Shown: positions 14,521 to 64,000 of the stretch, one piece after another | Position numbering within the stretch: the stretch's first letter is position 1 | Layout of the letters: every line of letters starts with the position of its first letter | Assembly (NCBI GenBank): GCA_948567375.1 | Contig: OX419762.1 | Location: 1,369,001 to 1,433,000 of the forward strand | DNA from: Lunularia cruciata | Lineage: Eukaryota; Streptophyta; Marchantiopsida; Lunulariales; Lunulariaceae | DNA length: 64,000 nt | Direction: 5' to 3' | Translations under genes and position numbers: made by a program | The notes under the pieces: model-generated | What the model was told of the DNA's origin: nothing | Database searches by the model: none | The model's input: only the letters and a program-made list of their open reading frames with translations

Positions 14521-14527
14521 AAAATCA

Positions 14528-16436: not shown

Positions 16437-16441
16437 TAGAG

Positions 16442-19090: not shown

Positions 19091-19149
19091 CGAATGAGGG
19101 TTTGCTGCTGTGAGAAGGTTTGCAAAGGAGAACTCACAAAAGGAGAGAT

Positions 19150-27770: not shown

Positions 27771-28134
27771 GGTTCTTATGTGCAAAGCCAAGTGAGAAAG
27801 AGAGAAACACAATGCCATTCAAGGGAGGATGATAGGTTTTTGTCATCTTGGTTTGAAATCAGTCAATTAGGAGGATAGATATAGTAGCACAATTTGAAGT
27901 CTTGAGCTTACTTTGGATCACTAATTTTCTAGGATTCTTGACTAAAATTGCTACAAGTAATTGTGAGGAGGATCTGAGCAAGGAAGGAAAGAGAGGAAAC
28001 CCAACCCAATGGACTGAAGCTGATTGGAGGCTAGTTCTTTAAAGTGATGCAAGAGAACCCATGGGGATCATCTTTGATTGGAAGTGTGATCATGCGTAAG
28101 AGATGGAGGACCTGAGGGCATCCTTCAATGATCC

Positions 28135-29780: not shown

Positions 29781-29785
29781 GATCC

Positions 29786-31468: not shown

Positions 31469-31942
31469 TTGGATCAAACCAATAAGTCGTTACAAATCCA
31501 AAGTGGTAGATTTGTAACTAAGATGTTTTGTATTTGAAGATTTGTAAGAAATAGTAAAATAGTTTAGACAGTTTCTATAAGTGCCAAGTGGTCTGCCTAT
31601 TTGAAGCAACCATTGTAGTACTTTGTATTTATTATTTGAGCAAAAGAATGAGTAAAGTCTTTTTATGGAAAAGTAGCTTCTTTATATCAACTAAATCATC
31701 ATGATTGAAGTCAACTTGGAATGAAACTAAAGAAATGTGATTTTGAGTGGTAGTTATTTGTGACAAAACCTATGTTTAGCATTTGCTACTCTCTTCTAGG
31801 TGTTGTTTCTACCCAAGAGATCAAGAGAACTACATTGTTACCTTTTACTTTATATTTGACCATTCTTGACCTACTTCTTTGTGGGAACAAATGATTACTC
31901 ACATATTACTACAAAAGTGATTGCTAGGTTGTCACATGATTT

Positions 31943-41060: not shown

Positions 41061-42170
41061 GGGCTAACGACAAAGCAATGTCAAGCAATTTTCCTTTGCC
41101 GTTGAGGAGTCGTCCTGTAGGTGATCGTGGGAAGGGAAGTAGAGTTGAAGACGCGCTAGTGTGTAGAGGAGAATTTGAGAGAGTGAAACCGAGAGACAGT
41201 GAGGAAGCAAGAAAGATGGGAGGAGGAAAGAAGAACTCCGAATTCACAGTGGGAAATCATGCAATTTGGAGGTTAGATGTGATCGCAAGAAGCAAAGTCT
41301 TGAGCCAACTTCGGATCACATTCTTGGCATGGAATTGAAATGCAAGTTTTCTAGGTTTCATGACTGAGATAATCAAGAGTAAGTGTCTCGATGGCCCCAA
41401 GGAAGAGGGGAAGAGAGGAAATCCGGCTTGCTGGAACAGAGTTGGATTGGAGATTAGTGCTCGGGAGAGAGGTAGGCGCGGAGCAAGGTGCCACATTCTT
41501 GGGGAAGGGAGAAGTAGCAAAAGAAACCCAAGAAGTGAGGGATGCCTTCTCTTCAAAGAGAATGAAGAATGGGTATAAGGTTGAGAGTTACAAAGATCCA
41601 GTGAAGAGAGGGATTGTGAGTGCTCTCATGGCAATCTTGAAGCCGGAGAGGACGACTTATGTGATGAAACACCAAGCAGTGTTCTTCCATAAGATGTTTG
41701 CAGGAGAACCTATCAATTGGGCGAGGTGCTTCCATGGGAGGACAAGACAGATGGTGTAGAATTTGCAGGAAAAGTCGCCTCCACACTACATTGCGCCGTT
41801 TGCAGCACATTTCTACCTCGGGTTGAATTTGCTCAATTTGGCGGAGTGCAACAGAATGGTGTCTCACTTCCATCCCGACATGAGAAGAGAAGTCAACATG
41901 GAGGAGCAGCAATACATTCTTCAAATCCAAAGCACGGATGCGTACTATGCAAAGACAGGAAAGAGCATGGAGATAGAAGTGAGTACTCCAAAGTCGAAGA
42001 AGTGGAGTCGACAAGGAGAAGCCAAAGATGTGGAGAAGACAAGACCTCATAAGACCAGGAGAGGAAACTTGAGGAGAGGCAAAGTGGTGATTGCATCAGA
42101 AGAGGAAGACTCGGAAGGCGAAGCCGAGTGCAAGTACGCAGACTTAGAACACGAGGAAGAACCGGAGCTC

Positions 42171-42862
42171 TGTAACACCCATTTGTGCATGTGTGTGGTA
42201 TTGTGATATTTAGCTTGGTATTATAGGTACTTAAGAGATATTATTTATATAGAGATAAAGGATGGTTCTATATTAGTCATGGTTAGCTAAAACTAGTCAT
42301 AGCTAAGATAGAGAGGACCTTACTTTAGAGGAAGTAGAAAAGATGAGCACCACTATTTTGGACTTTAGTGTGTTGACTTGGTATTATTCCTAGGTGTTTG
42401 GCTTTGAGGAAAGAGTTGAGAACTCTTGGGCCCGCAAGCCTTTTTGTTTTGGATTCTTCTTTAGTCCAAGGATAGCCCATGTGAAGGAATCCTTGACTTA
42501 GTGGTTGGGTCAAGATAAGACCACATGCATAGGGGAATATGCCCATGTGAATAGATATTCCTTTCTACTTTTTGACTTTACTTGACTTTTAGTCTAGTAA
42601 CTTGAGTTACTACGGTAATTAGTAACTTTGGTACGTAAATATTTAACAAGTATATAAACAAGGGGTGAGGAGAAACTCATCATCCTTTCATTTGCAACTA
42701 TCTCTCTCTCATTGAGTTCTCTAGTGAGCAATGTCTTGAGTCTTGGAGTGTTAGCCTTGGAGGAGTATGATGGAATTCGGGTTCCTTGCCTTCTTAGTCC
42801 ATGGTGCGCTACCATAATAGCCATCAAAGGTTCATCCTGAGTGAGAGATAGGCCGGCTCACA
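42171..42862 (+). repeat. 5' LTR of B element
   Basis: 692 bp, TGTAACACCC to CCGGCTCACA. It carries a TATATAAACA box near 42651. Compared with the 3' LTR most differences are transitions. Confidence 0.96.
42651..42660 (+). promoter_or_regulatory. TATA box of the B 5' LTR
   Basis: AAGTATATAAACAAGG is kept in the 3' LTR (about 49778-49787) and in the older B LTRs. It would place the transcript start near 42685, about 180 bp before the LTR end. Confidence 0.65.
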
Positions 42863-42866
42863 TTTT

Positions 42867-42883
42867 TGGTTCCGTTACCGGGA
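42867..42883 (+). promoter_or_regulatory. Primer binding site of B element
   Basis: TGGTTCCGTTACCGGGA lies four bases after the 5' LTR. It resembles TGGCGCCGTTGCCGGGGA, the complement of the tRNA-Asp 3' end, with about three changes and one missing G. Confidence 0.7.
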
Positions 42884-43722
42884 CCTCTCTAGAAGGCAAG
42901 ATAATGTTCCGCGTTCAATTCTACATTAGGCAGAAGGAGGCTATGAGAGCTTACTTGGAGAGAACATTAGGAAAGGAGAGGTCTGAACTTATGTTAGGAG
43001 AACCAAGATCCATTTTTATACCCTGTAGTTCTTTATGATGTCTTTGAGGTGATTTTGTACATCTTGTACACATGAGAGGAATTCGAGATATTGTGTGAGG
43101 TGGATTGCAGATTTTGGGGATTAAGGTGATTTTGGGCAAAATCTAAAGTTTGAGATCTGGACTTGAGATTTCTACACATGATAGCTTGGGTTATCTTTCA
43201 GTTAGCACATTCAAAATTATTATCAGAGCTACTATGCGCACTGGGCTAGAATTTTTGAAAGTTGATAGGGTAAAGTGCTCCCGCAACTGCATGCTCTCTG
43301 GAAAATTGTACAGAGTCTACCATTTCTTGAAATCTTAGTGAATTGTCCTGAAAATTTCCAAGAAAATTCAGTGCATTGTATTCTACCTGCTGCCACAAAC
43401 ATTAGAGAGAGATCGTTTTTGTGCAGGGCGTTATGAGTTTTTGAAGTGAGGGGGGTGGTTTTTAGACCAAATCTGAAATTTGTGTGCTGAATAGAAAGGT
43501 ATCTAGGCGAAATGGCTTGATGAAAAGATCTGAAATTTTGCAGGGAGGGACGCCCTAGAGTTGTGATCAAGTGTGCTAAATTTCAGAGGACTATGACATA
43601 CTGGTTGGGAGATTTGAGTGACATTGTGAGGAAGGGTCAATTCTGCAGAGTGGAGATCTCATGCATGAGGAGTTTGAGATCAACAAAAAGCATGTTTGAG
43701 TGTTTAGATTCATCTTGGGAAC
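42884..43722 (+). other. B element leader before the extra ORF
   Basis: This is 840 bp of transcribed leader. A matching leader is found in B copy 2 (54838-55696). A short frame (43150-43338) has a partly similar counterpart in copy 2 (55079-55300 region: GLEFLKVDRV in both). Many stops are present in both, so I do not call it a gene. Confidence 0.55.
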
Positions 43723-44160
43723 ATGGAGTGTTATCAAGAGTGGAAATTGAGATTATGCAAGGTTCCCCAAGGGTTTGAGATGATTTTAGGGGTGGATTTG
43801 AGGAAAAGAGAGTTTACAATAGAATTTGAAGGGAGTGTTGAGAGGATCCAAAAACCTACACCACTTGGAGGAAAGAGTGAGTCTAAGTGCTTTCTATGTG
43901 GAGAGATGGGACACAAGGCAAGTTCATGTCCATTGACCTTTGAGAGCAAGAGATTGAGGGAAAGGAGATGCTTACTTGACTTGGGTTTGCATGTTGGACC
44001 TTCTTCACCAAGATTGGGAGGGAGAAGATCTAAGACCAAGGAGTTGTGTGAGGTTTGTGGAGTTGAAGGACTTCCAAAAGGACATGAGTGTAGTGGAATA
44101 AAAGCACTTTTGGAAACTTTGGTGAAGGATCTTGGAGAGAGTCTTAGTACAGCTATATAA
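43723..44160 (+). CDS. B leader ORF: zinc-knuckle protein upstream of gag
   Basis: The ATG has the context AACATGG. The 145-residue product has a CCHC knuckle (CFLCGEMGHKASSC, about residues 57-70), a basic SKRLRERR stretch, GGRRSKTK and a second Cys/His cluster (CEVCGVEGLPKGHEC). A C-terminal helix follows (KALLETLVKDLGESL). Knuckles bind nucleic acid, so an RNA- or DNA-binding accessory role is plausible (inference). Gag of this element has its own separate knuckle at 45275. B copy 2 preserves the same protein (55697-55712 and 59235-59678) and ends SSQD, 11 codons later; the TAA here seems to be a new stop. It looks like an extra ORF of the kind known in some plant Gypsy groups. Confidence 0.7.
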   Translation: MECYQEWKLRLCKVPQGFEMILGVDLRKREFTIEFEGSVERIQKPTPLGGKSESKCFLCGEMGHKASSCPLTFESKRLRERRCLLDLGLHVGPSSPRLGGRRSKTKELCEVCGVEGLPKGHECSGIKALLETLVKDLGESLSTAI

Positions 44161-44198
44161 ATACTACCACCTTCATTAGCTAGTTCTCAAGATTAGTG

Positions 44199-44363
44199 AT
44201 GGAGATAATCTTTCAACTTATGGATAAACTATCCATGAGAGTTAGATTAATATGCACTCTAGGATTTGATATTGCTATAGAAATCTTGGAACAACCTAAA
44301 CCTTTTGTGTTCCCTAGAGTGGATTATTCTCAGATTGTGTTAGTCATGTATATACTCTATTAG
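44199..44363 (+). other. Possible small ORF between leader ORF and gag
   Basis: The ATG lies a few bases after the ancestral stop of the leader ORF (TAGTGATGG). It reads MEIIFQLMDKLSMRV ... EILEQPKPFVFPRV, 54 codons. B copy 2 has the same peptide with a single stop (59689 onward). The agreement is at protein level but the two copies are also similar in DNA, so coding status is uncertain. Confidence 0.35.
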
Positions 44364-44431
44364 TAATAGAGTGAGAAAAAAGAAAAAAGAAAAAAAAATT
44401 TGAGAGAAAAGAAAGATAGTGAGGGGTTAAG

Positions 44432-45418
44432 ATGGGGAAACTTCCGGTTTTCTTTGGCAAGGATGGAGAAGATGTGGAGGCCTTTGTGAGAGACTTCAAG
44501 AGAGCTTGCATAGGAAATAATGAGAGGAGGAAGAATGAGTGGGCCTCATTATTACCAGATTTCTTTGAGGATGCAATACTTACATGGTATGAGTCAGAAT
44601 ACCAAAAGAGAGAGAGGAGAGATGGGGAAGAGGACTCTTGGGAGACTTTGAATTCAGCACTCATTAAGAACTTTCTTCCTGATGAGAGTTATGAGAGATT
44701 GATGAGTGAGGTTACATTTCTCAAGCAAGGACATGGAGAGAAAGTGAGAGTCTATGTAGAAAGAGCTGAAAAGTTGGAGTCCAGATTTCGCATAGTGTGG
44801 AGGAAGGGTGGGGATGATGTGGAGACTACAATGATTGGCATAGGGGCCATGCTCACCAAGAATTTTGTGGGAGGGTTGAGACCACAAATTAGAAGCAAGG
44901 TGAGATATGAGAAACCTTCTTCCAAGGTTGAAGCTATCAAGATCGCAATTCGTATGGAGAAGAGTTTGGAAGGGGATAAGAGTGATTTGGTGGTGAAGGA
45001 GGTTGTGCATCATCCTCAAGGCTACAAGTATGGTGGAACTTCTGATACTTTGGTGACAAGGGTTGCACCACAAGTAGTAGTTGCTCCAATTGTTGCACCT
45101 CCACCAAAAGATCCACTCCAAACCATCACAGAACAACTTGCGGATCTCAAGATCAATGTGGTGTAACTATGGGAGAAGAGAGAGGTGGATCAGAATGTAG
45201 GGAGAGGGCCTAGGAGTTATGGAAACTGTCCATATAGAGGAGGCAAACCAGCCAACAATTTCAATGATAGAAATTGTTTTGGTTGTGGAAGAAGAGGCCA
45301 TATCCAAAGGAATTGCCCAAATTCCACTTACCATGGGGTTATGAGGGAGCCAATAGAGAGAAAGAGGGAGGTAGTGAAACCCAAGTGGCTCCTAATCCCA
45401 AAAAAGGTAAGAGGATAG
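44432..45418 (+). pseudogene. B element gag
   Basis: The ATG follows an A-rich run. The first 244 codons include the Retrotrans_gag region: VEAFVRDFKRACIGNNER, NEWASLLPDFFEDAILTWYE and LNSALIKNFLPDESYERLM. A TAA at 45164-45166 interrupts it. The same frame then continues through VGRGPRSYGN to a CCHC knuckle (CFGCGRRGHIQRNC, about 45275-45316). It loses frame soon afterwards, where the protease frame takes over. Gag builds the particle and binds RNA. Confidence 0.88.
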
Positions 45419-46094
45419 CATCCATAGATGTGGTTGAGAGCAAGTATGAGAAGGGAGAGTGCTCAAACTCCAAGGGTCTTAATTTGGAGCTTTTGGCACA
45501 AGAGAAGAAGAGAGCTCGTTTTGCAAAGGATGTTCACTCTTCTCAAGGATTTACTTCAAGCAAGGATACTCCTATGTCTATTAGGAGCACTCACACCTCA
45601 ACACCATCAACAACAAAGACTCCAAGGAAGAAGTTGGGGATGGAGGACTTCTTGATCTCAAAGCAACAATGGAACTACAATGTGTTGGAGGATGTTGATA
45701 GTCACAAGGCTAACATCATAGTGGGCCAATTGATTGCTTTGAACCCTACCTTGAGAATGGAGCTGAGAGGTGGTTTGAGTTCTACAAGGAGCAAGAGGAA
45801 GAAGAAAGCAAAAGTTCCAGTATCAATGGGGGTGGTGGATGCCAAGCCAACACCATGGGAGGCTTGTGAATATACCTCCAAGATTGATGTGAGAGTGAAT
45901 GGTCACAACATCAAGGATGCATTGGTTGATGGAGGATCAGCAGTAAATGCCATGTCAGAAAGGTTGATGAAGAAGTTGGGTATGATACCCTCAAGACCTT
46001 CAACATTTGTGGTGAGCATGGCAAACAAGCAACAAGTTTGACCAGTAGGGGTGATGGATAAAGTGGTAGTTTCTATTATGGGAGTTCAAATCTC
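45274..46094 (+). pseudogene. B element protease region
   Basis: The open frame (to 46041) is shifted relative to gag, with the frame change between about 45320 and 45400. It has a basic, Ser/Thr-rich spacer, then MEDFLISKQQWNYNVLEDV and the active site ALVDGGSAVNAMSERLM. The site is D-G-G-S in place of the usual D-[ST]-G-[AS]. A TGA follows at 46039. The protease continues in another frame from 46095. Confidence 0.82.
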
Positions 46095-46685
46095 ATGACT
46101 TTCCAAGTCTTGAAGGATTCAAGCTATGACTTACTTCTTGGGAGGCCATGGTTGAGAGTAGCACGCACAATTGATCGATGGCACAAAGGGTACTTGAGGA
46201 TTGGGCCATCAAACCATAGAGTCACAGTTCCTATGACTAACACCACCAACACTTCACATTTAGATACACCATCTTCTGATTATTGGGAATCAAATTCTGA
46301 AGAAGGAGCTTTAGGTGTGGACACAAGCATGGAAGAGGAGACTTACATGGAGGAGGATGAATCTGAATCTGATTCAGATGTGTATCCTTTGTGTGCTATG
46401 GATTTTGCACCTAAGCCAAAGGTTTTGAAGGACCCAGACAAATCACCATTGACACTTGAGGAGGTAGAGAGAAGGTTAGCTACCCTCAAGTATGGTCCAA
46501 ATGTTACCAAGGAAGAGAAGGTGAGATTTGAGGAGATTTTCCGCAAGTTCATCCATGTGTTTGCTTTCAGTTACAAGGATTTGAAGGAAGTCACCTTGGA
46601 GGAGCACAAGATAGAGGTAGAGTCACATGCAAGACCAATCCGCCAAAAGCAACGCGCATTAGCCCACCAATATCTTTGGTTGTGA
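46095..46685 (+). pseudogene. B protease C-terminus and RT lead-in
   Basis: SSYDLLLGRPWLRVA is the second conserved protease block. An acidic stretch (EEETYMEEDESESDSD) follows, then FRKFIHVFAFSYKDLKEV and IEVESHARPIRQKQR, the usual segment before Gypsy RT. The frame is lost at about 46660, and RT is read in the frame starting 46676. Confidence 0.85.
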
Positions 46686-48187
46686 AGGAGGAGATTGATA
46701 AGCTCAAGGAGGCTAGATTTATCTTTGAGGTGGAGAATTCAGAATGGGTGTCTCCAATTGTCATTGTGAAGAAAAAAAATGGCAAGCTTTGGGTATGTGT
46801 GGATTACAAGAAGCTCAATGCTGTTACCAAGAAGGACTACTACCCATTGCCATTCATTGATGAGATCTTGGAGGAGGTTGCAGGTCATGAGAGGTACAGT
46901 TTTGGAGATGGTTATAGTGGATATAACCAAATCAAGATTGCACCAGAGCATCAACAACTCACCACATTCACCACACCTTGGGGAACTTACGCTTTCAAAA
47001 TCATGCCTTTTGGGCTTTGCAATGCTCCAGCCACATTCCAACGGTTCATGAACAAGGTATTTGAACCTTTCATTGGGAAATTTGTGAGAGACTTCATTGA
47101 TGACTTTTGTGTCTATGGGAGCAAGGAGGAGCACTTTGAGCACCTTATCAAAGTCTTGCAACGCTTAGATGAGGCAAATGCATCACTCAACCTAGAGAAG
47201 TGCATTTTTGGATGTGAAGAAGGTCTACTTTTGGGGCACATCATCTCCAAGGATGGAATAGCAGTTGATCCTAAGAAGGTGAGGAAAATCTCAGACCTTC
47301 CATTCCCTTCAAGCTTGACAAAGTTACGCCAATTCTTGGGGATGGTTGGATACTATAGGAGGTTTATCTTCTCATTTTCCAACAAGGTTTATGCATTGAC
47401 CATCTACATGAAGAAGGGTGTAGATTACATGGTGATTTTGGAGGACAAGGAGGCTCTCAAAGCTTTTGAGGAGCTCAAGCAATCCCTTGTTGTAGCTCCA
47501 ATTCTTGCTAAACCTGATTGGAGTAAGCCTTTCATCCTCTACACTGATGCTTCTAATGTAGCTATAGGATGCACTCTTAGTCAATTAGACCAAGATGGGC
47601 ATGATCATCCAATAGCTTATGCTAGTAGGCAGATGGTTTCAGCAGAGAAGAACTACTCTGTCATGAAGAGAGAAGGGTTGGCAGTGATCTTTGGTCTCAA
47701 GAAGTTTAGACACTACTTGATTGGAGGGAAAGCCACCATTGTCACGGATCACAAGGCTTTGAAGTACATCTTCAACAAGCCTAATGTTGAAGGGAGACTA
47801 GCAAGGTGGATGATATTCTTGTCTGAGTATGACTACACCATTGAGGATAGGCCAGGAAAGAAACATGCAAATGCTGATTTGTTATCTAGAGCCTATGATC
47901 ATGATGGACATGAGCCAGTGGATGATTCCTTCCCAGATGAGGAGCTCATGACAATCTCAGTCACTCAAGAGGTTCCAATGGAGTACAAGGAGATTGTGGA
48001 TTTTGTGACAAGAGGTTACTATCCAAAAGGGATGCATGCTAGGGAGAGGAAGGCCCTTGCAGCAAGATCTAGACCTTACACAATGGTGGAGGATATTCTT
48101 TTTCACCAAGGAGCAGATGGTCTACTTCGAAGAGCAGTGGGTAAGGAAGAGTCTATCCTACTCATAAAGGAGTTTCATGAAGGTTAA
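46676..48187 (+). pseudogene. B element reverse transcriptase and RNase H
   Basis: This is a 503-codon uninterrupted frame, the longest in the window. RT motifs in order: EVENSEWVSPIVIVKKKNGK, VDYKKLNAVT, YPLPFIDEIL, DGYSGYNQI, TTFTTPWGTY, MPFGLCNAPATFQRFMN, the catalytic box DFIDDFCVYG, LLLGHIIS and FLGMVGYYRRFI. RNase H follows: FILYTDASNVAIGCTLS, VMKREGLAVIFGLKKFRHY, VTDHKALKYI and HANADLLSRA. A first stop at 48185 ends it just before the integrase zinc domain. All RT catalytic aspartates are present. One GDG replaces the more usual LDL before GYSGYNQI. Confidence 0.92.
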
Positions 48188-49249
48188 GTATGTGGAGGAC
48201 ACTTTGCAGGAAAGGTGACTGCTTTCAAGATTCTAGATGCAGGTTACCATTGGAGAGGGATTTTCAAGGATTGTCTTGATTATTGCAAAACTTGTCATGT
48301 TTGTCAAGCTTTTGCTAGAAAGTCTACATCCACTTCACCACTTAGATCAATTCCATTACTAGGACCTTTTGAGAAGTGGGGAATTGATTTTGTAGGTCCT
48401 CTCAATAGAACCCCAAGGAACAATCAGTATATTGTGGTAGTTATTGATAACCTTACCAAGTGGGTTGAGGCTAGACCATTCACGGACAAGAATGAAGATG
48501 AAGTGGGTAGATTTCTTTATGAACTCATTATCACTAGGTTTGGATGCCCTTTGGAGTTGGTTTCTGATAGAGGAGGAGAGTTTACAGGAAGCATAACTAT
48601 AGCCATGCTACAACATTTATCTATCACACATAGAGTAACTACATCCTATAAGCCAAATTCCAATGGCTTGGTAGAGAGAACCAATCAGACCTTGTGCATG
48701 ATGTTGGCCAAAGATGCAAAAATGGAGGGGGCTAAACATCATTGGGACAAGAGGATTCATGCAGTTTTGTGGGAGTATAGGACAACTATGAAGACTTCCA
48801 TCGGATATTCTCCATTTCAATTGGTGTATGGTATTGAGTCTACCTTACCTATTCACTTTGATCTTCCTACCTTCCAAAGCATTCATAGGAGATTGAAGAA
48901 AGCACAAGGAGGTGATGCATAGAAGTCAAGGAAGGATCAACTCATGGAGTTGGAAGAGGCAAGAGCAATTGCTATGGTTTGAGTGGAGCAAGCCCAATGG
49001 AAACAAAAGGAGAGCTATGACAAGAGGCAAGGCAAGAAGAAGGTAGAGACTTTCAAAGAAGGTGATTGGGTAATGTTGTTTGATTCCATTCGATTCAAGA
49101 GAGTGCAAAAGAAGTTTTTGCCTAAGTACTTTGGACCTTTCATAGTGGAGAAGGTGTGGGGCAATTACACCTATGATCTCAAGGAGTTGGGAGGAAGACA
49201 CTTTGATAGGATTAACCATGATAAGTTGAAGATGTACCATAGAAGGTAG
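48188..49249 (+). pseudogene. B element integrase
   Basis: It is in frame with RNase H after one stop. The zinc domain reads CGGHFAGKV, GYHWRGIF and CHVCQAF. The core has WGIDFVGPLN, LVSDRGGEFTG and KPNSNGLVERTNQTL, giving D, D and E. The segment SPFQLVYGIESTLPIHFDLP is typical of the core end. Two further stops (48920 and about 48980) precede a basic helix and the GPY/F-like block KYFGPFIVEKVWGNYTY. No chromodomain is seen. The frame ends at 49249, about 30 bp before the purine tract. Confidence 0.9.
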
Positions 49250-49281
49250 AGAGACCTTCACTTTGAGGACAAAGTGAAAAC

Positions 49282-49297
49282 TTAGTCCGGGGGTAAA
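49282..49297 (+). promoter_or_regulatory. Polypurine tract of B element
   Basis: TTAGTCCGGGGGTAAA abuts the 3' LTR start TGTAACACCC. It is interrupted by a TCC but sits in the expected place. Confidence 0.75.
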
Positions 49298-49989
49298 TGT
49301 AACACCCATTTGTGCATGTGTGTGGTATTGTGATATTTAGCTTTGTATTGCAGGTACTTAAGAGATATTATTTATATAGAGATAAAGGATGGTTCTATAT
49401 TAGTCATGGTTAGCTAAAACTAGTCATAGCTAAGATAGAGGGGACCTTACTTTAGAGGAAGTAGAAAAAATGAGCACCACTATTTTGGACTTTAGTGTGT
49501 TGACTTGGTATTATTCCTAGGTGTTTGGCTTTGAGGAAAGAGTTGAGAACTCTTGGGCCCGCAAGCCTTTTTGTTTTGGATTCTTCTTTAGTCCAAGGAT
49601 AGCCCATGTAAAGGAATCCTTGACATAGTGGTTGGGTCAAGATAAGACCACATGCTTAGAGGAATATGCCCATGTGAATAGATATTCCTTTCTACTTTTT
49701 GACTTTACTTGACTTTTAGTCTAGTAACTTGAGTTACTACGGTAATTGGTAACTTTGGTATGTAACTATTTAACAAGTATATAAACAAGGGGTGAGGAGG
49801 TACTCATCATCCTTTCATTTGCAACTATCTCTCTCTCATTGAATTCTCTAATGAGCAATGTCTTGAGTCTTGGAGTGTTAGCCTTGGAGGAGTATGATGG
49901 AATTCGGGTTCCTTGCCTTCTTAGTCCATGGTGCGCTACCATAATAGCCATCAGAGGTTCATCCTGAGTGAGAGACAGGCCGGCTCACA
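49298..49989 (+). repeat. 3' LTR of B element
   Basis: 692 bp, the same length as the 5' LTR with about 18 differences and no indels seen by eye. The bases after it (GCTC) repeat those before the 5' LTR. Confidence 0.96.
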
Positions 49990-51590
49990 GCTCACGCTGC
50001 AAAGTGGGGATATGAGTAGCAATAGTGATGAAGGTGGAGAGATGATGTTGGTACATGCTGCTACTGAAGAAGAAGAAGAAGTTCGAGTGGAGCTCAAAGA
50101 AGAAAATAATGCAAAGTTGGAGGACAAGGTACCCAAGCCAGAGGAGAAGAAGTTTACGATTCAGAGAGGAGTTTGGTTGAGACGCAAGGTGAAGTGTGAA
50201 GCGGGTCCAAGCAAGGCAAGGGAAGAGGCAAATGCTAGCTCGGGAAGTGAAGCGTTTATTCCGATACAAAGACTGCAGAGAAGAACACAAGTATCAAGTG
50301 AAGAAGAGGTAAGGAACAAGATTTCTACGCAAGAGGAAGTAGTTGCGAGTGATGGAGTGGAGTACCTGTGAGAAATTGTGTGCCCATTGTTGGTGAAGTT
50401 GGAGCATAAGAAGAAGGAGATGCAGTCAACATGTACGGAGGTGAAGACTGTGTTGCAAGTTTTGGTGAGATTGGAAGAAGAGAACTCGGAGTTGAAGAAG
50501 AGTATAACCTGAGGTGAGGAGGAAAGGGAAGTACTACAAGGGGATGCAGTAGTACAAAGTCAAGTTATTGAGGACTTGAAGAGAGAAGCAAGGTATCGAG
50601 AAGAACTTGTGAAGAAGAGTGACATAGCAAGGGAAAGACAAGTAGCAGAGTACAAAATCTTGAAGCAACAGTTTGTTGATTCCAGACTAGAAATTATCCA
50701 TGCTATGGCAAGGATAGCAAAGAAGGAACAAGAGCTCAATAGAGCGATGGAGAGTGTAGAAGAGAAGAAGCAACTATGGCAGAAGGAGTTGATAGTAAGA
50801 TATAGGGAAGAAGAGCGATTACAAGAGTTACTTTGTAATCAGGAGTAGAAGATTGTGCAGAAGGAGAAGGAGAAAGAAACTATGAAAGCCAAGTTTGAGG
50901 CAGAGTTGGCAATGTACAAGGAAGATTGGCTTGTAGATTAGGAGCGTGAAAGGAAGATGAGATTGGAGCTATTGAAGGCGATCATAATCAGGATGAATGC
51001 AATGTTGAGTACTGAAGCCAGTATTCATATTGAAGAGACGAGGCTACACGAGTTGAAGTTGTTGGTGCAAAAGACGAGGAGGAGACATGCAAAGGATACA
51101 AACTTGATTGCTCTGTTAATTAGTCTCAGAACTCGTGTAGATAGGAAGATATTGGAGGTAGAAGATAATATCACAATTAGATTAGATCTAGTGAAGTTAG
51201 AGATAGATAAACTTTGGAAAGATGTTAGAGAAAAATGCAAAGTAGATGAAGTAGGAGTACAGATGTCTTTGGAGTTGCCATTGGAGACATTAGAGAAGAG
51301 TAGGTCAGCAGATAAGGAGTTAGATAGATTACCCACTAGTGAAATATCAGATCAGGAAAGAGAATTGGATCTGGTAGAAGATGTAGTAGTTATGAAACCC
51401 GAGGATAGAGTAGTAGGAAGTATAGTTACTTTGGGTTTGGGTTTGAAAGCCAAGGAAGAAGTAGACATTGGATCCGATTAGTAACCGATTTGAGATTTGA
51501 ATAGGCAGATATGAAGAGGTTCATTGTCATTTCAGATCTGCAAGTTTGTAGAGGCATTAGGAAGAGGTGCATTAGGAAGATAATGGTCAA

Positions 51591-51648
51591 TTGCTTCACT
51601 TTTTAAGAGAGCCATTCGATTGCTTCACTTTTTAAGAGTCCCATTCAC
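51591..51648 (+). repeat. 29-bp duplication over the LTR2 core promoter
   Basis: TTGCTTCACTTTTTAAGAG occurs at 51591 and again at 51620, followed by a near-identical GCCATTC/CCCATTC. The TTTTTAAG motif is where other C LTRs have their TATTTAAG box. LTR2 therefore has two TATA-like boxes. Confidence 0.7.
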
Positions 51649-53043
51649 AGTCTTATGTTGTTTAGTGCTCATTATTTCTTAGAATAGATAATGCAAAGTA
51701 CTGTGAAGCAATGCTCATTGCTTGAGCTTGATTCCGAGTATCAACATTGTGCTTGTGTTTGTGAGTGTGTGGAGAAATTTGAACTGCAAATCAGTGTGCT
51801 TGTTGGATGTTGGATTCCATAGCCTTGATCTTCATTTTGTGTGTTTGATCCTGAGTGAAGTGCAATCAGAGCAATGCCTTGATAGATTTGAGAGGAATTG
51901 TAGTGTTGGTTGTATTCTGCATTTGTGAGTGCAGTGCAAAGTTGATGTGAAGCAATTTCAATCAAGGAAATTGTGCCTTCAATGGAGGGGTGGAACACAA
52001 TTCTGAGATGAAGTTGTTTTGCAATGAAGTGCCATTTTTGGGAGAGCCTGAATCATCACAATCAAGATTTTTTGGAAAGAATTGATGGAGTTATGATTAA
52101 GGAGTGTGAATTCGTGACAAGAGTGTGAATCAGTGCTTGTTACTCTCTTCTGGGTGTGGTTTCTACCTGAGAGATTAAAGACAACACCAAGAAGAACTGA
52201 AATTGTTACTTTGCTTCGTATTTAGACATTTCTGACTCGTATCTCTACGGGAACAAACTTTACTTACCCAATTACCGCAAAAGTGATATCTGCCGGGTTG
52301 TCTCAACAAGTTGGTAGAGTTGTTAGGAATTGGTTTAAGAAGTTAGATAATTGCTAAATGGCTATGCCTATTTAAAGGGGGCATTTGTAGTGCGATGTTG
52401 TTCAATGTGCATATTCTTGAGAATAGATAAAGCAAAGTGTTGTGAAGAAGTGCTCATTGCTTGAGCTTAATTCCGAGTATTGACGTTGTGTATATGTTTG
52501 TGAGTGTAGGGAGAAATTTGAAGAGCAATTTTCAATGTTAGATTTTGGATTCTACATCTCTAATTCCATTCTATATGTTTGATTCTGATTGGATAGCAAT
52601 CAAAGCAATGCCTTGATAGAACTAAGAAGAATTGTAGTGTTGGTAGTATTTTGCATTTGTGAGTACATCATGGTGTTGATGTGAAGCAATTTTGATCAAG
52701 GAAGTTGTGCCTTTGGTGGAGGGGTGGAACACAATTCAGAGGCAAAGTCATTTTATAGTGAAGTAGCCATTTTTGAGAAAGACTAAATCATCACAGTTGA
52801 ATTTTTTTTGGATAGAATTGAAAGATTTGTGATTATGGGTGACAAATTGTTGTGACAAGATTGCATTTTAGTGCTTGTTACTCACTTTTGGGTGTGTTTT
52901 CTACCTAAGAGATTAAAGAAGAACTCAAGAAGAACTGATTTGGTAACTTTGCTTTGTATTTGGATATTTTTGACTTGTATCTCTGTGTGAACAAACTTTG
53001 CTTACCTAATTATCACAGAAGTGATATTTGCCAGGTTGTCACA

Positions 53044-55712: not shown

Positions 55713-58700
55713 TATGACAACCTAGCAAATATCACTTTTGTGGTAATCAAGTAAGTAAAGTTTGTTCCACAGAGATATGATTCAGAATTGGTCAAATACA
55801 AAGCAAAGTAACAACTTCAATTCTTCTTGGTTGCATCTTTAATCTCTTAGGTAGAAACCACATCCAGAAGAGAGTAACAAGCACTGACTCGTCATCTCAT
55901 CACAACAATTTGTCGCACTTAATCACAACTTCATCAAATCTTTCCAAAAAATCTTCATTGTGATGATTTAGTCTCTCCCAAAAATGGCACTTCACTAGAA
56001 AATGACTTTACTTCAGAATTGTGTTCCACCCCTCCACTAAAGGCACAACTTCCTTGATCAAAATTGCTTCACATCAACTCTACGATGCACTCACAAATGC
56101 AAAATACTACCAACACTACAATTCCTCTCAGATTTGTCAAGGCATTGCTTCAATTGCACTTCACTCAAGATCAAACAATGAATGAAGATCAAGGTTGCGG
56201 AATCTAACATCCAACACTCACACTGATTTGCACTTTGAAATTCTCCACACACTCACAAACATAGACACAAAATTGATACTCAGAATTAAGCTCTAGCAAC
56301 GAGCACTAAAATCAGCACTTTGCTTTATCTATTCTTAGAATTATGAGCACTGAACAACATATGATTGTGAATGCCACCTTTAAATTGGCAAAGCACTTCA
56401 GCAATTACTAACAACTATAATGTTTCCTAACAACTCTTCCTACCTACCTGTAGATCCAAAATGACAAACCACCTCTTCATATTTGCCTCTTCAAATCTTA
56501 AAATTGTTACTACGCTGATCCAATGTCTACTTCTTCCTTGGCTTCCAATCCCAATCCTGAAGTAATCTCACATACTACTCTATCCTTAGGTTTCCCAACT
56601 ACTAACTCCTCTACCAATTCTACTACTTCTTCTTTCTGATCTACAATTCCCATCACAAGTAACCTTTCTAATTCTCTATCTCCTGACCCACTCTTCTCTA
56701 ATATTTCCAATGGTAACTCCAAAGATATTTGTACTCCTATGTCATCTACTTTGGGCTTTGCTTTTACATCCTTCCAAAGTTTACCTATCTCCAACTTTAC
56801 TAGATCTAATCTAATTGTGATATTATCTTCCACTTCTAATATCTTCCTCTCTACACAAGTTTTGAGACTAATGAGCAAAGCATTCAAATCCTTATCCTTT
56901 GCATTTTTCCTCCTCGTCTCTTGCACCAACACAATTCAACTCGTGCAATCTTGTTTCTTAAATCCTAACACCAGCTTTTGTACTCTCCATCACTCTATCA
57001 AGCTCTTGCTCCTTCTTTGCTACTCTTGCCATATCATGAATAATTTCTAACCGTGAATCAATAAACTATTGTTTCAAGATCTCATACTCTGCTATCTATC
57101 TCTCCCTTGCAATGACATTCTGCTCTATTATTCTCTCTCTACTCCCCACTTCCTTCTTTAATTTTTCAATTACCTCATTCTGTACCATTGCATCTACTCA
57201 TAGTACTTCCCTCTCTTCTTCACCTCGAGTTATATTCTTCTTCAACTCCGAGTTCTCTTCCTCTAATCTTGCTAACACCTCCAACACAATCTTCACTTTT
57301 GGATACTTTGATTGCATCTCCTGCTTCTTCTGCTCCAACTTTGCTAACAATGGGCACACAACCTCCCACAAATACTCTACTCCTTCACTTGGTTTTACCT
57401 CAACTTGTGGACTTTTCTCCTTCTTCACTCAACACTCACCTTCTCAGCTGCAATCTCCTTATTGGAATGGATTCTTTGCTCTCTAAATTACCACTCTCCA
57501 CTTCTCTTACATGACCCGGTCTTGCTTCATACTTTGCTCTTCTTCTAGAATGGACTCCTCTTTGAATGGTCACCCTCTTCTCCTCCTGCTCTAGAACTTC
57601 ATCTTTGGGTCTTTGGTTACCTTCTTCTTCCATTTCCATCTTTCCTTCTTCCTCTTTGGGTACCGACTGCATCTCCACTCCATCTTCACTCTCGCTGCTC
57701 ATGTCACTACTCTGCAACATGACTTTAGCTTCTTCCTCCTTGTCTAAGTCTTCTAACTTGTCTTAGGCCTCCTCTTCTGATTCTTTGCCCAACAATGCGA
57801 TTACCACCAATTCTTTCCTTGGGTTTACCTTCCTGATCTTCCAAGGTCTTGTCACCACTACTTCTTCTTCTTCTCCTTGTTGACTCCTCTTCTTTGACTT
57901 TGGAGTATTCACCTTCATCTGCATGCTCTGCCCCGTCTGTGCATAGTACTCATTGCTGCTCCTTATTTGCAAGATGTATTGCTGCTCCTCCGTGTTAGCA
58001 TCTCTTCTCAAATTTGGGTGGAAGTGCGACACCATCTTGTGTCTCTCCATCATGTTCAGCAAGTTCAGTCCCAAGTAGAAATGGGCTGCAAACGGCACAA
58101 TGTTGTGTGGAGGTGACTTGTCTTGCAAGTTCCACACCATTTGTCTTGCACGCAGATGAAAGCACTTCGCGCAATTGAATGGTTCCCCTACAAACATTTT
58201 GTGGAAGAACACCACTTGATGTTTCATCACAAAAGTGGTTTGTGCCGCCTTCAAGATAGCCATCATTGCACTTACAATGCCTCTCCCCACAGGGTCTTTA
58301 TAGCTCTCAACTTTGTAGCCATTCTTTGTGTGCTTTGAAGAGAAGGAGTCTCTCACTTCTTGGGTTTCTTCAACTACTTCTCCCTTTGCTAAGAACGTGG
58401 ATCCTTGCTCATCACCTGCCTCTCTTTAGAGTACTAACCTCCAATCCAACTCTATCTAGCAAGCCAGATTTCCTCTATTCCCTTCTTCCTCAGGGCCATC
58501 GAGACATTTACTCTCAATGATTTCAGTCATGAAACTTGGAAAGCTAATGTTCTTGTTCCATGCTAGGAATGTGATCTAAATCCTGCTCAAGACTTTGATT
58601 CTCGCAATCATATCTAATCTCTCACTGCAAAGTCAGAGTTCTTCTTCCCACCTCCCATCTTTCTCTCTTCCACTCTAGTTTGGTGGCTACTCTTCCTACT

Positions 58701-59229
58701 GATTCCCGGACTGACTTCCTATCGACACACCAGCGCATCTTTGACTACACTTCCTTTCCCATGATCTTCCGCAAGACAACTTCTTAACGGCAATGGAAAA
58801 TTACTTGTCATTGCTTCATCTCTAGCCCAAATCTTATAGTGGCCCACTTCCTCCGTCTTTCTTCACTTTGAATTTCTCCAAAAATTCACACTTCCTTTGT
58901 GCTCCCGTCACTATCAAATCACCTCTTGCTCATAGGCTAGCCATTTTTTGTGCACGGTACCTTCTTGAATGTCCAACCCCAAAGGAAAGTTGTTACACTA
59001 TCCTCATCTCGAGTTGAGCATCCTTGAGACAAAGTCCCCTTACTTTGGGTTTCAAGTTGATAGTGCAAATCCGAGTACTTCATCTTCTAACACAAAGTCA
59101 CTTTTCCTTGGGATTATAGCCCAAAGACATCATTCTTTGCCTTCAAATGGCATACATGCGCAATCCAACTTCTTTTGTACACCTCTTCTTCAAAAATAAG
59201 AAAAAAAAAACAAAAATATGGGTACCACA
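55713..59229 (-). mobile_element. Solo C-L LTR with perfect TSD (CCAAG)
   Basis: 3517 bp, TATGACAACC to GGTACCACA. CCAAG is at 55708-55712 and 59230-59234. The host sequence is collinear with the B leader at 43730-43740 once it is removed. It carries a U3 frame shortened within the coiled coil. Confidence 0.96.
56510..58811 (-). pseudogene. U3 coiled-coil protein, internally deleted copy
   Basis: The ATG at 58811 gives MTSNFPLPLRS. MGGGKKNSDF and the N-terminal domain follow (58356-57763 open: YKVESYKDPVGRGIVSA, KHQVVFFHKMFVGEPFNC, VSHFHPNLRRD). The coil begins at 57428 (VEYLWEVVCPLLAKLEQKK). About 250 bp of the coil are missing near 56990 (ERVMEST then LVLGF). The tail ends LEAKEEVDIGSA at 56510. 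The total is 2302 nt. It has several stops. Confidence 0.8.
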
Positions 59230-60490
59230 CCAAGAGTGGAAATTAAGGTTATGCAAGATTCCCCAAGGGAGTATTGTATTTGGGGAAAAGTGAGTTTAGA
59301 ATAGAATTTGAAAAGAGTGTTGAGAGGATCCAAAAACCTACACCACTTGGAGGAAAGAGTGAGTCTAAGTGTTTTCTATGTGGAGAGAAGGGACATAAGG
59401 TAAGTTCATGTCTATTGACCTTTGAGAGCAAGAGATTGAGGGAAAGGAGAGGCTTACTTGACTCAGGTTTGCATGTTGGGCTTTCTTCACCAGGATTGGG
59501 AGGGAGAAGATCTAAGACCAAGGAGTTGTGTGAGGTTTGTGGAGTGGAAGGACTTCCAAAAGGAAATGAGTGTAGTGGATTAAAAGAACTTTTGGAGACT
59601 TTGGTAAAAGATTTTGGAGAGAGTCTTAGTATAGCTACAGAAATACTACCACCTTCATTAGCTAGTTCTCAAGATTAGTGATGGAGATAATCTTTCAACT
59701 TATGGATAAACTATTCATGAGAGTTCAACTAATATGCACTCTATGATTTGATGTTCCTATAGAAATCTTGGAGCAACCTGAACCTTTTGTGTTACCTAGG
59801 GTGTATAACACTCAAATGGTGTTGTGACAACCCGGCAAATATCACTTTTGCGGTAATTGGGTAAGTAAAGTTTGTTCCCGCAGAGATACAAGTCAAAAAT
59901 GTCCAAATACAAAGTCAAATAGTAACATGTAATTCTTCTTGGTTGCGTCTTTAATCTCTCAGGTAGAAACCACACCCATAAGAGAGTAACAAGCACTGAC
60001 TCACAGTCTTGTCACAAATTAACACTCCATAATCACAACTCCATCAAATCTTTCCAAACAATCTTGATTGTGATGATTCAAGCTCTCCTAAAAACGGCAC
60101 TTCACTGCAAAACGACTTTGCCTCAGAATTGTGTTCCACCCCTCCACTGAAGGCACAACTTCCTCGATCAAAATTGCTTCACATCAACTTTGCACTGCAC
60201 TCACAAATGCAAAATACTACCAACACTACAATTCCTCTCAAATCTGTCAAGGCATTGCTCCAATTGCACTTCACTCAGGATCAAAAACATAAAATGAAGA
60301 TCAAGGCTGTGGAATCCAACATCCAACAAACACTCAGACTTGCACTTCAAATTTCTCCTAACACTCACAAACACAATCACAAAGTTGATACTTGGAATCA
60401 AGCTCAAGCGACGAGCACTGCTTCACAGCACTTTGCTTTATCTATTCTCAAAAATTATGAGCACTAAATAACATTTGACTGCGAATGCCA

Positions 60491-60502
60491 CTCTTAAATA
60501 GT
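60491..60502 (-). promoter_or_regulatory. Probable genomic-RNA promoter of C-L LTR
   Basis: The minus strand reads ACTATTTAAGAG, matching the TATTTAAG box of the C-S LTRs. It lies about 95 bp after the end of the U3 frame. Confidence 0.55.
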
Positions 60503-60594
60503 GAATCAATCAACAGTTCTAACAACTATTCTAACCTGCAGATCCAAAATGATAATGCACATCTTCATATCTACCTCTTCAAATCTCAAAACTG

Positions 60595-63171
60595 TTACTT
60601 ATCCGATCCGATGTCTACTTCTTTCTTGGCTTTCAAACTCGAACCCGAAGTAATCTTACTTCCTACTACTGTGTCCTCGGGTTTCACAACTTCTAATTCT
60701 TCTACCAATTCCAGCAATTCTCTTTCCTGATCTGAAATTCCACTAGTGGGTAATCTATCTAACTCCTTATCTCCCGACCCACTCTTCTCTAATGTCTTTG
60801 ATGGCAACTCCAAAGACATTTGGACTCCTATGCTATCTACTTCGGGTTTTGCTCTAACATCCTTCCAAAGTTTTTCTAGCTCTACTTTCACTAAGTCTAA
60901 TCTAATTGAAATGTTATCCTCTACCTCTAAAACCTTTCTCTCTACACGAGTTCTTAATTTGATCAACAAGGCATTCATCTCGGTGTCTTTTGCTTGTCTT
61001 CGCCTCGTCTCCTGCACCAACAACTTCAACTTGTGCAGGCGTGCTTCTTCAATTCAAACGTTGGCTTCTGTACTTAACATCGCGTTCACGCTGAGGACTA
61101 TCTCCTTCAATGGCTCCAATCTTGTCTTCCTTTCTCGCTCCCGATCTGCAAGCCATTCCTCTCGATACATTGCCAACTCTGCCTCGAATTTGGCTTTCAC
61201 CGTTTCCTTCTCTTTCTCCTTCTGTTCAATCTTCTCTTCTTGATTACGAAGTAACTCTTGTAATCTCTCTTCTTCTCTATATCGTGCAGCTAACTCTCTT
61301 TGCCAGAGTTGCTTCTTCTCCTCCATACTTTCCATCACTCTATCAAGTTCTTGATCCTTCGCTGCTACCCTCGCCATAGCATGGATAAGTTCTACTCTTG
61401 AATCAGCAAACTGCTGCTTCAAGATTTTGTATTCAGCTACTTGTCTCTCTCGTGCTATGTCACTCTTCCTCGCAAGATCCTCTCGATAGCTCACTTCCCT
61501 CTTCAGGTCTTCAATTACCTGACTTCTCTCTACTACCTCCGCTTGCAGTACTTCTCTCTCCTCCTCACCTCGGGTTACACTCCTCTTCAACTCCGAGTTC
61601 TCTTCTTCTAATCTCACTACCACCTGCAATACAGTCTTTACCTTTGGACAAGTCGACTGCATCTCCTTCTTCTTGTGCTCCAACTTCACCAACAATGGGC
61701 ACACTACCTCTTGCAAGTACTCCACTCCATCACTGGCAACTACCTCATCCCGCGGAGTGGTCTCTCTTTTCTCCTTTTGTTCTCCTGATACTCGCCTTCT
61801 TCTTTGGAGTCTTTGTATCGGGATTAATGCCTCACTGCCCGAGCCTTCTTCTACCTCTTCCTTCACTCTACTTGGCCTTGCTTCACACTTTGCCTTATGT
61901 CGCTAGCAAACTCCTCACTGAACTGTGATCTTCTTTTCCGCTGGCACCGGTACTTCGTCCTCCAGCGTTGTGTTGTCTTCGGCTTCCACCTTGGCTTGCA
62001 CTTCTTCTTCGTATTCTTCAGCCGCTGGCGCCAATGTCATCTCTCCACCTTCTTCACTATCACTGCTCGTATCTCCGCTCTGTAGTGTCAGCTCAGGTTC
62101 CTCCTCATGTTCCGAGTGCTCCGTTTTGAGCTCGGCCTCGCCTTTTGAGTCTTCATCTTTTGACTCAATAACTACCATTCCTCGCCTCGGGTTACCTCTC
62201 TGCATCTTTCGAGGTTTCTTGCTTTCTTTGGCTTCTCCTTGCCGACTCCTCTTCTTTGTCAGGGTACTCACTACGACCTCCACGTTCTTCCCTCTCTTCG
62301 TGTAGTAATCGTCCGTGCTCTGGATTTGGAGTATGTATTGCTGCTCCTTGACATTGACCTCCTTTCGCACATCAGGATGGAAGTGCGACACCATCCAATT
62401 CCGCTCCGCCGAGTTCAAAAAATTGAGCATGAGGTAGAAGTGTGCTGTAAACGGCACAATGTAGTGTGGAGGCAACTTATCCCGCAAATTCCACACCATC
62501 TGCCTCGTTCTCCCATGAAAACACCTCGCCCAATTGATTGGTTCTCCTGCAAACAACTTATGGAAGAACACCGCTTGGTGTTTCATCACATAAGTCGTTC
62601 TCTCCGGCTTCAAGATCACCATGAGAGCACTCACAGTCCCTCTCTTCACTGGATCCTTGTAACTCTCAACTTTGTACCCATTCTTCGTTCTTTTTGACGA
62701 GAAGGCATCTTTCACCTCCTGAGTCTCTTGGGTATCTCTCCTTTCCCCAAGAACGTGGCTCCCTGCTCCAAGCCTGCCTCTTTCCTGAGTACGAGTCTCC
62801 AATCCAACTCTGTCCAGCGAGCCGTATTTCCTCTCTTCCCTTCTTCCTTGGGTCCATTGAGACACTTACTCTCGATGATTTCTATCATGAATCCTAGAAA
62901 ACTTACGTTCCAGTTCCATGCCAAAAAGGTGATCCAAAGTCAGCTCAAGACTTTGATCCTCGCTATCACATCTAATCTCCAAATCGCATGATTTTCTCAC
63001 TGTGAATTTGGAGTTTTTCTTACCTCCTCCCATCTCTTCTACTTTCTCACTTTCTCTCGATTTCACTCTAGCAACTTCTCCCTTGCGCACTAACACGAGT
63101 CCAAGTCTATTTCCCTTTCCCCGATCACCTGCAAGACAACTCCTCAACGGCAAAGGAAAATTGCTCAACAT
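60595..63171 (-). pseudogene. U3-embedded coiled-coil protein, best-preserved copy
   Basis: 2577 nt (859 codons) run from MLSNFPLPLRSCL to LKAKKEVDIGSDK. Residues 1-45 are basic and reach MGGGKKNSKF. Two compensating indels (about 62980 and 62715) shift the next 90 codons. From 62700 to 60595 the frame is open except for three stops (two near 61905-61915, one at 61051). The domain has YKVESYKDPVKRGTVSA, KHQAVFFHKLFAGEPINW, RQMVWNLRDKLPPHYIVPF and VSHFHPDVRKEV. Acidic and basic linkers follow, then a ~300-residue coil (61720-60900: EYLQEVVCPLLVKLEHKKKE onward) and the tail. No signal peptide or membrane segment is evident. Function unknown; structural, Gag-like or host-interaction roles are all possible. 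Confidence 0.85.
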
Positions 63172-63188
63172 TTCGTCGTTGTAGTTTC

Positions 63189-63200
63189 AATTTTTATAGA
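63189..63200 (-). promoter_or_regulatory. TATA box upstream of the U3 frame
   Basis: The minus strand reads TCTATAAAAATT, about 18-30 bases before the first ATG (63171). It is the same motif as at 41049-41060. Confidence 0.6.
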
Positions 63201-63584
63201 GTTGCGCTTCTTTGTCTTCTGTCACTTCGAATTCCTATCAAGAAATCACATCTCCAACATGCAACTGTCACTGTCAATCAACCTTTGCGCGTATGTGCCG
63301 CTAGTTTTCAAATGGCCCCTTCTTGAATTTCTCGCCCCGACGAAAGGTTGTTAGACTGTCTTTGCCTCAGGTTGAGCTCCCCCCGATCCAAAGACAATTT
63401 ACTTTGGGTTGTATGCTGACAGGGCATTTCCAAATACTTTGCCTTATGACCCGAAGTCACTTTACTTCGGGTTTCATCCCGAAGACTCTTTTCTTTGCCT
63501 TCTTCGGCCATACAGGCGCAATCCGACTTCTCTATACACTTCTTCTCCTTTATTCTGAAAAAAACAAAAAATATGGGCACCACA

Positions 63585-63597
63585 TACCTCCTCCCTC
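63585..63597 (-). promoter_or_regulatory. Polypurine tract of the C-L element
   Basis: The minus strand reads GAGGGAGGAGGTA directly before TGTGGTGCCC. The integrase stop overlaps its start, as in the complete C element. Confidence 0.85.
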
Positions 63598-64000
63598 AAA
63601 TGTGAGCATCCCCACAAACATAGACCTTGGGTGTCTTAGAAACTTCCGAGTCTATGGTCCAATATCTCCGAACTCTCCACCTGTTTACTCGAGTGGCAAA
63701 AGGATTACCTTCCAAGTTGACGAGCTGCATGGATCCATTTTTGTAAAGATGAAGAACTCAATAGGGACCTATCCATCTCAAATGCAACTTGCTTGGAAAA
63801 AATATTCGGCAATTGTCATATAACAAAACCAAATCCTCTTCTCGTACAGTCACAGGCTTGATTCTCTTATCGGGCCTGACTTTCCTCTGTGCTTGTACTT
63901 CTTTCGTGGTTTGCATTGCATCGTCTCTTTTCTCTTCTAACCACATCAGTTGATGAATCCGAAGATCCTGACTTTCTTCTTCCGACATTTGTTCTTCGCA
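63596..64000 (-). pseudogene. C-L element integrase C-terminus (cut by window end)
   Basis: The frame shows EESQDLRIHQLMWLEEKRDD, KVRPDKRIKPVTVREEDLVL and LHLRWIGPY, then one TGA in place of the Arg seen in the C element. It continues with NGSMQLVNLEGNPFATRVNR to a stop inside the purine tract. It is very similar to 8371-8780, so long- and short-LTR elements share the same pol. Confidence 0.88.

Follow-up and report, generated by a model that had tools for sequence, protein, structure and literature searches.

A selected protein-coding gene in the long terminal repeats of Ty3/gypsy retrotransposons of Lunularia cruciata

Long terminal repeats (LTRs) are usually regarded as regulatory DNA only. 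A stretch of 64,000 nucleotides from the 566-Mb genome of Lunularia cruciata (C12:1369001-1433000; hereafter the window), which contains a nest of old gypsy copies, raises the question of whether they may also house a gene, since a long open reading frame (ORF) at 60595-63171 appears to lie inside an LTR. Is the frame a gene, does it belong to the LTR, and in which part of the LTR is it located? A real, selected, LTR-resident gene is near certain. The explanation that we consider highly probable is an accessory gene of about 856 codons that lies wholly within the LTR of a large non-chromovirus group of Ty3/gypsy elements, in sense orientation and most likely in U3.

The LTRs in question (C; 3.5-3.8 kb where not truncated) are represented in the window by the following features:

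59823-63584, minus strand: C1, a 3' LTR of 3762 bp (TGTGG...GTCACA) with the polypurine tract (PPT)-like GAGGGAGGAGGTA directly upstream
60595-63171, minus strand: LTR-resident ORF in C1, 859 codons, with four internal stops and a +1 stretch
63585-63600, minus strand: PPT of the C1 element
63585-64000, minus strand: interior of the C1 element, which runs off the window; 75% to 8366-8778 (interior of element A next to its 3' LTR)
55713-59229, minus strand: C2, a solo LTR inside a B-type element, with the target site duplication (TSD) CTTGG/CTTGG
56510-58811, minus strand: decayed ORF in C2
40663-42170, plus strand: first part of C3, a solo LTR interrupted by element B; holds the N-terminal ORF portion, from 41078 on
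49990-52305, plus strand: second part of C3, with the remaining ORF to 51481; flanks GGAAG/ACAAG
23486-26849, minus strand: C4, a truncated C LTR with the ORF at 23975-26536

C1 is identified as a 3' LTR because a PPT-like tract and an A-like interior lie directly upstream, and C2 as a solo LTR because CTTGG flanks it on both sides; C3 is located inside another LTR, and we interpret its flanks as a 5-bp TSD that has degraded. In all four copies, ORF and LTR have the same orientation. A plus-strand reading of 60595-63171 is full of stops and was rejected; the frame is on the minus strand and is interrupted by stops at codons 102, 419, 423, and 706. Sliding codon-position analysis of C1-C4 revealed a third-position excess from about 400 to 2990 of the LTR, which between about 600 and about 870 in C1 is in the +1 frame relative to the frame on either side, indicating two compensating shifts in this copy. 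The long frame that an initial annotation of this DNA had placed in the C LTRs is therefore present but decayed, and all copies in the window are broken. Homology among the full-length and partial copies listed in that annotation was confirmed by tblastn, both for the copies (23975-26536, 56510-58811, and 41078-51481, which is split by element B at 42171-49989) and for the fragments (21628-22426, 28545-29519, 29793-31474, and 34328-35714); 29793-31474 forms a single copy with 27848-28180, split by another LTR.

The boundaries of further copies bear on whether the ORF belongs to the LTR. A protein search of the same genome, in which 126 of 25,413 first-look candidates were scored, provided 40 fetched stretches: 6 that comprise two LTR pairs and their interiors, 24 that represent about every fifth row, and 10 further rows mostly picked for long open frames, so that the sample leans to long frames. 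Among them were 38 LTR stretches, 34 of which align with C1 in one piece from end to end; 37 were kept after the incomplete L017 had been dropped. All 37 start with TGTGG, and 34 are bounded by a primer-binding site (PBS) downstream, a PPT upstream, or, as solo LTRs, a 5-bp TSD. A PBS follows five LTRs (one a variant, read by eye) and a PPT precedes 11 (four read by eye), with one LTR counted under both; the solo LTRs have an exact TSD in 12 cases and four of the five bases in seven, and three LTRs are outside this rule. Two interiors are each located between two ORF-bearing LTRs, with LTR-LTR divergences of 6.9% and 6.4%, and the former element is flanked by AAAGA on either side. At G000:C2:53599200-53614200 (L012-L014), one LTR is preceded by a PPT-like tract and followed by a PBS-like site, as would be expected of a tandem LTR-interior-LTR-interior array.

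The ORF is LTR-resident and not internal, because PBS, PPT, or TSD bound 34 of the 37 sampled LTRs. According to excerpts of PMC7264820 and PMC6317226, plant gypsy elements frequently carry ORFs between pol and the 3' LTR, and an ordinary internal 3' extra ORF in the style of Athila, Tat, or Retand, with the LTR wrongly delimited, would be an alternative; it is hardly conceivable, however, for an ORF that TSD-flanked solo LTRs and 5' LTRs with a PBS both contain, and that has the PPT upstream of it. The same boundaries exclude the mis-delimited element that the initial annotation had named as a potential pitfall. Its interpretation as an accessory gene that is doubled with each LTR and survives in solo LTRs is supported; two interiors are flanked on both sides by ORF-bearing LTRs, and TSD-flanked solo LTRs contain the ORF. 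The gene may have been captured, although no source of it was found.

The elements that carry the ORF are Ty3/gypsy LTR retrotransposons. The interior of one complete element (that with the LTR pair of 6.9% divergence) has Pfam matches to gag, reverse transcriptase, RNase H, and integrase in gypsy order; a protease match is absent from this element and below threshold in element A. No chromodomain was matched in the pol pieces scanned, although their frames are broken and a decayed domain could escape, and an assignment to the chromoviruses (Tekay, CRM, Reina, Galadriel) was rejected. Likewise rejected was an assignment to Tat (Ogre, Retand, TatI-III), which is defined by a second, archaeal-type RNase H; this domain was not matched in the open pieces scanned, the stretches between them being outside the scan. 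A PBS (TGGCGCCGCTGCCGGGG) is located a few nucleotides past the LTR and a PPT before the 3' LTR. The PBS of the C elements resembles, as we presume, tRNA-Asp. Both the PBS and its spacing are similar to those of Diaspora and Calypso, which use tRNA-Asp according to an excerpt of PMC1142308.

The ORF has been under long-term purifying selection. Pairwise dN/dS (nonsynonymous to synonymous substitution) among the frame-corrected ORFs of C1-C4 is 0.178-0.309 (bootstrap limits 0.13-0.40; 729-844 codons), compared with 0.69-1.12 when the same copies are read in the two wrong frames, 0.38-0.97 in their non-coding LTR sequence 3' of the ORF, a mean of 0.85 (range 0.60-1.19) in a neutral simulation, and 0.10-0.18 in a positive control (pol of an A element vs a relative). 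In a set of 39 copies (the 37 sampled LTRs, C1, and C3; C2 was left out), dN equals 0.117 dS + 0.032 (r 0.91, mean ratio 0.22; 741 non-independent pairs). Variants common to at least three of these copies are distributed 208/176/461 over codon positions 1/2/3 and private variants 302/256/321, and the LTR flanks are flat. Frame-breaking indels amount to 0.38-0.55 per kb per copy in the ORF vs 3.8-4.0 in the LTR flanks. ATG is present in 38 of the 39 copies and a stop codon (TAG or TAA) in 31. An intact frame exists: one copy is fully open over 856 codons, but one in 39 is not a rate, because the open copy also set the frame reference and the sample leaned to long frames. That 38 of 39 copies are broken, and that parts of the product are rich in few residues, would also be expected of a frame that is no gene but a by-product of base composition or neutral decay. 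Such an origin has a practically negligible probability in view of the codon-position bias, which shared variants show and private ones lack, the few frameshifting indels, and the wrong-frame and simulation controls.

The constraint seems to be largely a matter of lineages rather than of individual insertions. Differences at codon positions 1/2/3 are 0.072/0.070/0.069 and 0.058/0.058/0.068 between the two LTRs of one interior vs 0.093/0.077/0.180 between different copies (38 copies; C3 was also left out). The initial annotation had named a dN/dS near 1 in young copies as evidence against a gene; in the same-interior pairs, whose codon positions differ almost equally, it is 0.58 and 0.40, at or below the low end of the neutral simulation, and the lineages evolve at a far lower rate in the protein (slope 0.12). 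Decay after insertion is near neutral and may not be wholly so; alternatively, the simulation may fail to capture a process such as methylation-driven change. It was chiefly the mobile lineages that were under constraint, and this constraint dates from a time when the gene already resided in the LTR, because C1-C3 share the LTR-resident state. The divergence of the LTR flanks between copies (0.103 and 0.086) is lower than that of four-fold sites in the ORF (0.204; 38 copies), whereas the two are similar between the two LTRs of one interior; we read the low flank divergence as a sign either of constrained LTR ends or of exchange among families.

The gene is not restricted to the C family. The other elements and ORF-related stretches of the window are:

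6577-16438, minus strand: element A, complete, with LTRs of 1.8-1.9 kb; PBS adjoins 14528
15328-15570, minus strand: part of an A-family LTR with homology to the C-terminal end of the ORF; further such parts at 4809-5138 and 7267-7539
42171-49989, plus strand: element B, a complete, nested gypsy element with an LTR of 0.69 kb
28545-29778, plus strand: D1, N-terminal half of a divergent ORF and the last ~265 bp of its LTR
29786-31936, plus strand: D2, divergent ORF and LTR end (N-terminal piece at 27848-28180), followed by a PBS-like site and gag, which makes it a 5' LTR
34328-35714, minus strand: D3, strongly decayed copy of a divergent ORF, identified by tblastn homology
21628-22426, plus strand: E, C-terminal part of a divergent ORF, which continues into an LTR tail ending near 23220

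In the region 27848-31936, a D-type 5' LTR is broken within its ORF by another D-type LTR. The LTRs of B are 97.4% identical to each other vs about 95% for those of A. A tandem array of ~50-bp units at 18467-20157 has a long open frame on the minus strand, which may be a repeat by-product.

A D1-domain search of the genome, in which 150 of 17,765 candidates were scored (with possible overlap with the C candidates), yielded matches with 66-76% identity, the window's own copy apart. One D copy was fetched and proved to be a solo LTR of 3718 bp with the TSD GATGG and the ORF in the same place. The protein identity is 51% in codons 43-325 (no stop) and 36% in codons 354-854 (seven stops), with 99/85/152 and 214/173/272 differences at codon positions 1/2/3, respectively. 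The gene is thus present in two families with greatly different protein sequence, and it occurs in LTRs of all three kinds (5', 3', and solo). In a third family (A) it is nearly absent: homology in the three A-family LTRs is confined to the final ~80-110 codons, where the third codon position differs more than the second (62 vs 30 of 108 codons), but dN/dS in the ORF frame (0.66 and 0.70) is no better than in another frame (0.53 and 0.63). Because the ORF is common to C and D, we presume that the A family has lost the gene. The LTR tails of C, D, and A (C1 LTR from ~2535 to 3762 vs L049 and the A LTRs) share 75-81% DNA identity, whereas the ORFs or the upstream LTR parts differ far more; this gives the LTRs a mosaic appearance, with the junction close to where the ORF ends.

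The location of the gene within the LTR depends on which of two TATA-like sites common to at least 15 of the 39 copies is the genomic promoter:

63192-63198, minus strand: TATA-like box CTATAAAAAT at LTR position 387, 27 nt upstream of the ORF ATG; TATAA in 35 of 39 copies
60494-60500, minus strand: TATTTAA box downstream of the ORF, at LTR position 3085; in 25 of 39 copies, the rest mostly TACTTAA

The downstream box is the probable genomic promoter because it is also found in two of the three A-family LTRs. The ORF lies wholly within the LTR and upstream of this box, and its likely location is U3 rather than R/U5; a promoter of its own is plausible. If the box near position 387 were instead the genomic promoter, U3 would measure only ~0.4 kb, and the ORF, in R/U5, would be the first frame of the genomic RNA before gag, similar to the 5' extra ORFs of Tekay and Retrosat2 but reaching into the LTR. 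Of the two boxes, this one fits the TATA consensus better and is conserved in more copies (35 vs 25 of 39), and the ORF begins just past it, but such an arrangement would require a strong-stop copy of ~3.3 kb. Moreover, the three A-family LTRs lack TATA[AT]A and retain only the ORF end, yet share the downstream part of the LTR, with the TATTTAA box in two of them; without the upstream box and most of the ORF, at least A must start downstream. We therefore regard a location in R/U5 as improbable and retain U3 as the preferred location.

In the predicted product, a basic N-terminus is followed by ~240 residues of conserved domain (about 60-300), a basic stretch (305-331) that resembles a nuclear signal, an acidic linker, a coil-like stretch of ~300 residues, and a tail. 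Residues 460-770 show a hydrophobic heptad periodicity that was not reached in any of 1000 shuffles, and proline plus glycine amount to 1.9%. Pfam searches with the ORF gave below-cut-off matches or none; the full-length product matches no family at E up to 1, and no family was matched by the fully open copy or the D-family sequence. Sequence searches of the PDB gave one match at E 0.45 and otherwise none, and the 11 pattern hits in IMG/VR were not confirmed. In a protein collection whose plant representation is uncertain, no relative was found among 934, at least 8000 (perhaps swamped by coil words), and 349 candidates. AlphaFold2 with two alignments reached mean pLDDT values of 42.8 and 47.0 and gave no usable fold model.

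Membership in Transposase_32 (PF20167) was considered and rejected, because a single one of 16 domain sequences scored 16 bits against a curated cut-off of 45 bits and the remaining 15 gave no PF20167 match up to E 10. The same match (E 0.012; profile positions 113-160 of 177) might nevertheless hint that the gene descends from a diverged 3' extra ORF of the Athila/Transposase_32 type, made LTR-resident by a shift of the PPT to its upstream side. Athila-type elements carry such ORFs, as described in excerpts of PMC6317226 and PMC11728184, and the shift of the PPT would be mechanically simple. However, a family as implausible as N6_N4_Mtase obtains a better E value (0.0057) with another member, which puts the PF20167 match at the level of chance; neither the fully open copy nor the D-family sequence has any Pfam match, and PF20167 finds nothing in the genome itself, although the controls of that scan were also silent. 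This origin, which would be compatible with a gene in U3, appears rather unlikely, and the product is, as far as its sequence reveals, a member of no protein family tested.

For a gene in U3, the TATA-like box close to the start of the LTR would serve as its own promoter, and the transcript would end at the LTR polyadenylation site. Bounded in this way, each LTR, solo LTRs included, would be a self-contained gene. The genomic RNA would start at the second box, downstream of the ORF, and the single U3 copy at its 3' end would pass the gene to both LTRs during replication. The protein probably oligomerizes, acts in the nucleus, and helps elements in trans, for example, against silencing, in nuclear entry, or in targeting. 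A nuclear trans-acting role is a guess guided by the architecture of the product, and a more specific role in anti-silencing or as a nuclear adaptor is doubtful. It is possible, though we incline slightly against the combination, that this is the first known protein-coding gene wholly within a plant LTR, organized as a promoter-ORF-terminator cassette that encodes a nuclear coiled-coil protein helping relatives in trans, with A exploiting C and D.

Several observations weigh against a functional gene with its own promoter. Constraint is weak in some segments (dN/dS of 0.32-0.68 in the tail, 0.67 in the N-terminus of C1-C3, and 0.55 in the linker of C2-C4), the linker is saturated in three pairs of C copies, and codons 1-46 have a weak position-3 excess (9/15/18), though few indels (two). 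The broken copies contain 2 to 10 stops and frameshifts together, and the amplification of A-family elements took place with most of the gene missing. In the window, the divergent copy D1 carries CTGTAAAAT instead of a clean upstream box, which in C1 is uncomfortably close to the ATG; at the usual distance from TATA to start, the mRNA would begin at or past the ATG. This spacing may be accounted for by a very short leader, another start, or splicing. The heptad periodicity is not significant for residues 560-700 alone, and the databases searched yielded neither a relative nor a usable fold model.

Among known systems, the closest counterpart is sag of mouse mammary tumour virus (MMTV), which is likewise a protein gene wholly in the U3 part of a long LTR, the location that is likely here. 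As given in excerpts of the sources, its product has 320 residues (PMC3621094) and is a superantigen expressed from spliced mRNAs (PMC3026287). MMTV is an animal retrovirus, whereas the gene described here belongs to a plant element, encodes ~856 residues, and has its own TATA-like box in the LTR. It likely works like a U3-resident accessory gene. The nef gene overlaps the LTR only partly. In the cited excerpts, long ORFs in LTRs comprise sag, nef, bovine foamy virus, and HML ORFs, all from animal viruses (PMC2664473, PMC3621094, PMC3026287), and most HML ORFs are antisense and of doubtful coding capacity (PMC2664473). The C gene differs from nef and the HML ORFs in that the whole gene is inside the LTR, in sense orientation, and selected.

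Plant gypsy elements share the trait of an extra protein of unknown role. Excerpts of PMC7264820, PMC11963269, and PMC6317226 describe Athila ORF-1, Retand Transposase_28, the Ogre plant mobile domain, and Grande gene23, with one nuclear protein and one with an SMC-like match. These ORFs are situated between LTR and gag or between pol and 3' LTR, whereas the C gene is inside the LTR; its presence in TSD-flanked solo LTRs and 5' LTRs rules out an eORF-5' or eORF-3'. The Pfam families of those internal ORFs were not matched, one sub-threshold Transposase_32 match apart. Retrosat2/Tekay elements, which are gypsy elements with LTRs of more than 3 kb and an extra ORF (PMC3485330, in excerpt), have both features in common with the C elements, but their ORF0 is located upstream of the gag-pol ORF and occurs in chromoviruses (PMC6317226, in excerpt), whereas the C elements lack a chromodomain match in the scanned pieces and have the ORF in the LTR. 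Plant surveys, in the parts cited, recognize extra ORFs only in the interior, on its 5' or 3' side (PMC6317226, PMC7264820). An LTR-resident plant gene was not encountered in searches of open-licence literature, some of which addressed other questions, and this does not show that none is in print.

A selected gene in the LTR is doubled with each insertion and outlasts the collapse to a solo LTR, and it would be expressed independently of gag-pol if its own promoter works. Gene predictors may take such LTRs for host genes. As a plant counterpart to MMTV sag, the gene bears on how genes enter LTRs and why they are kept there, and lets one ask whether gene-free relatives live off the carriers in trans.
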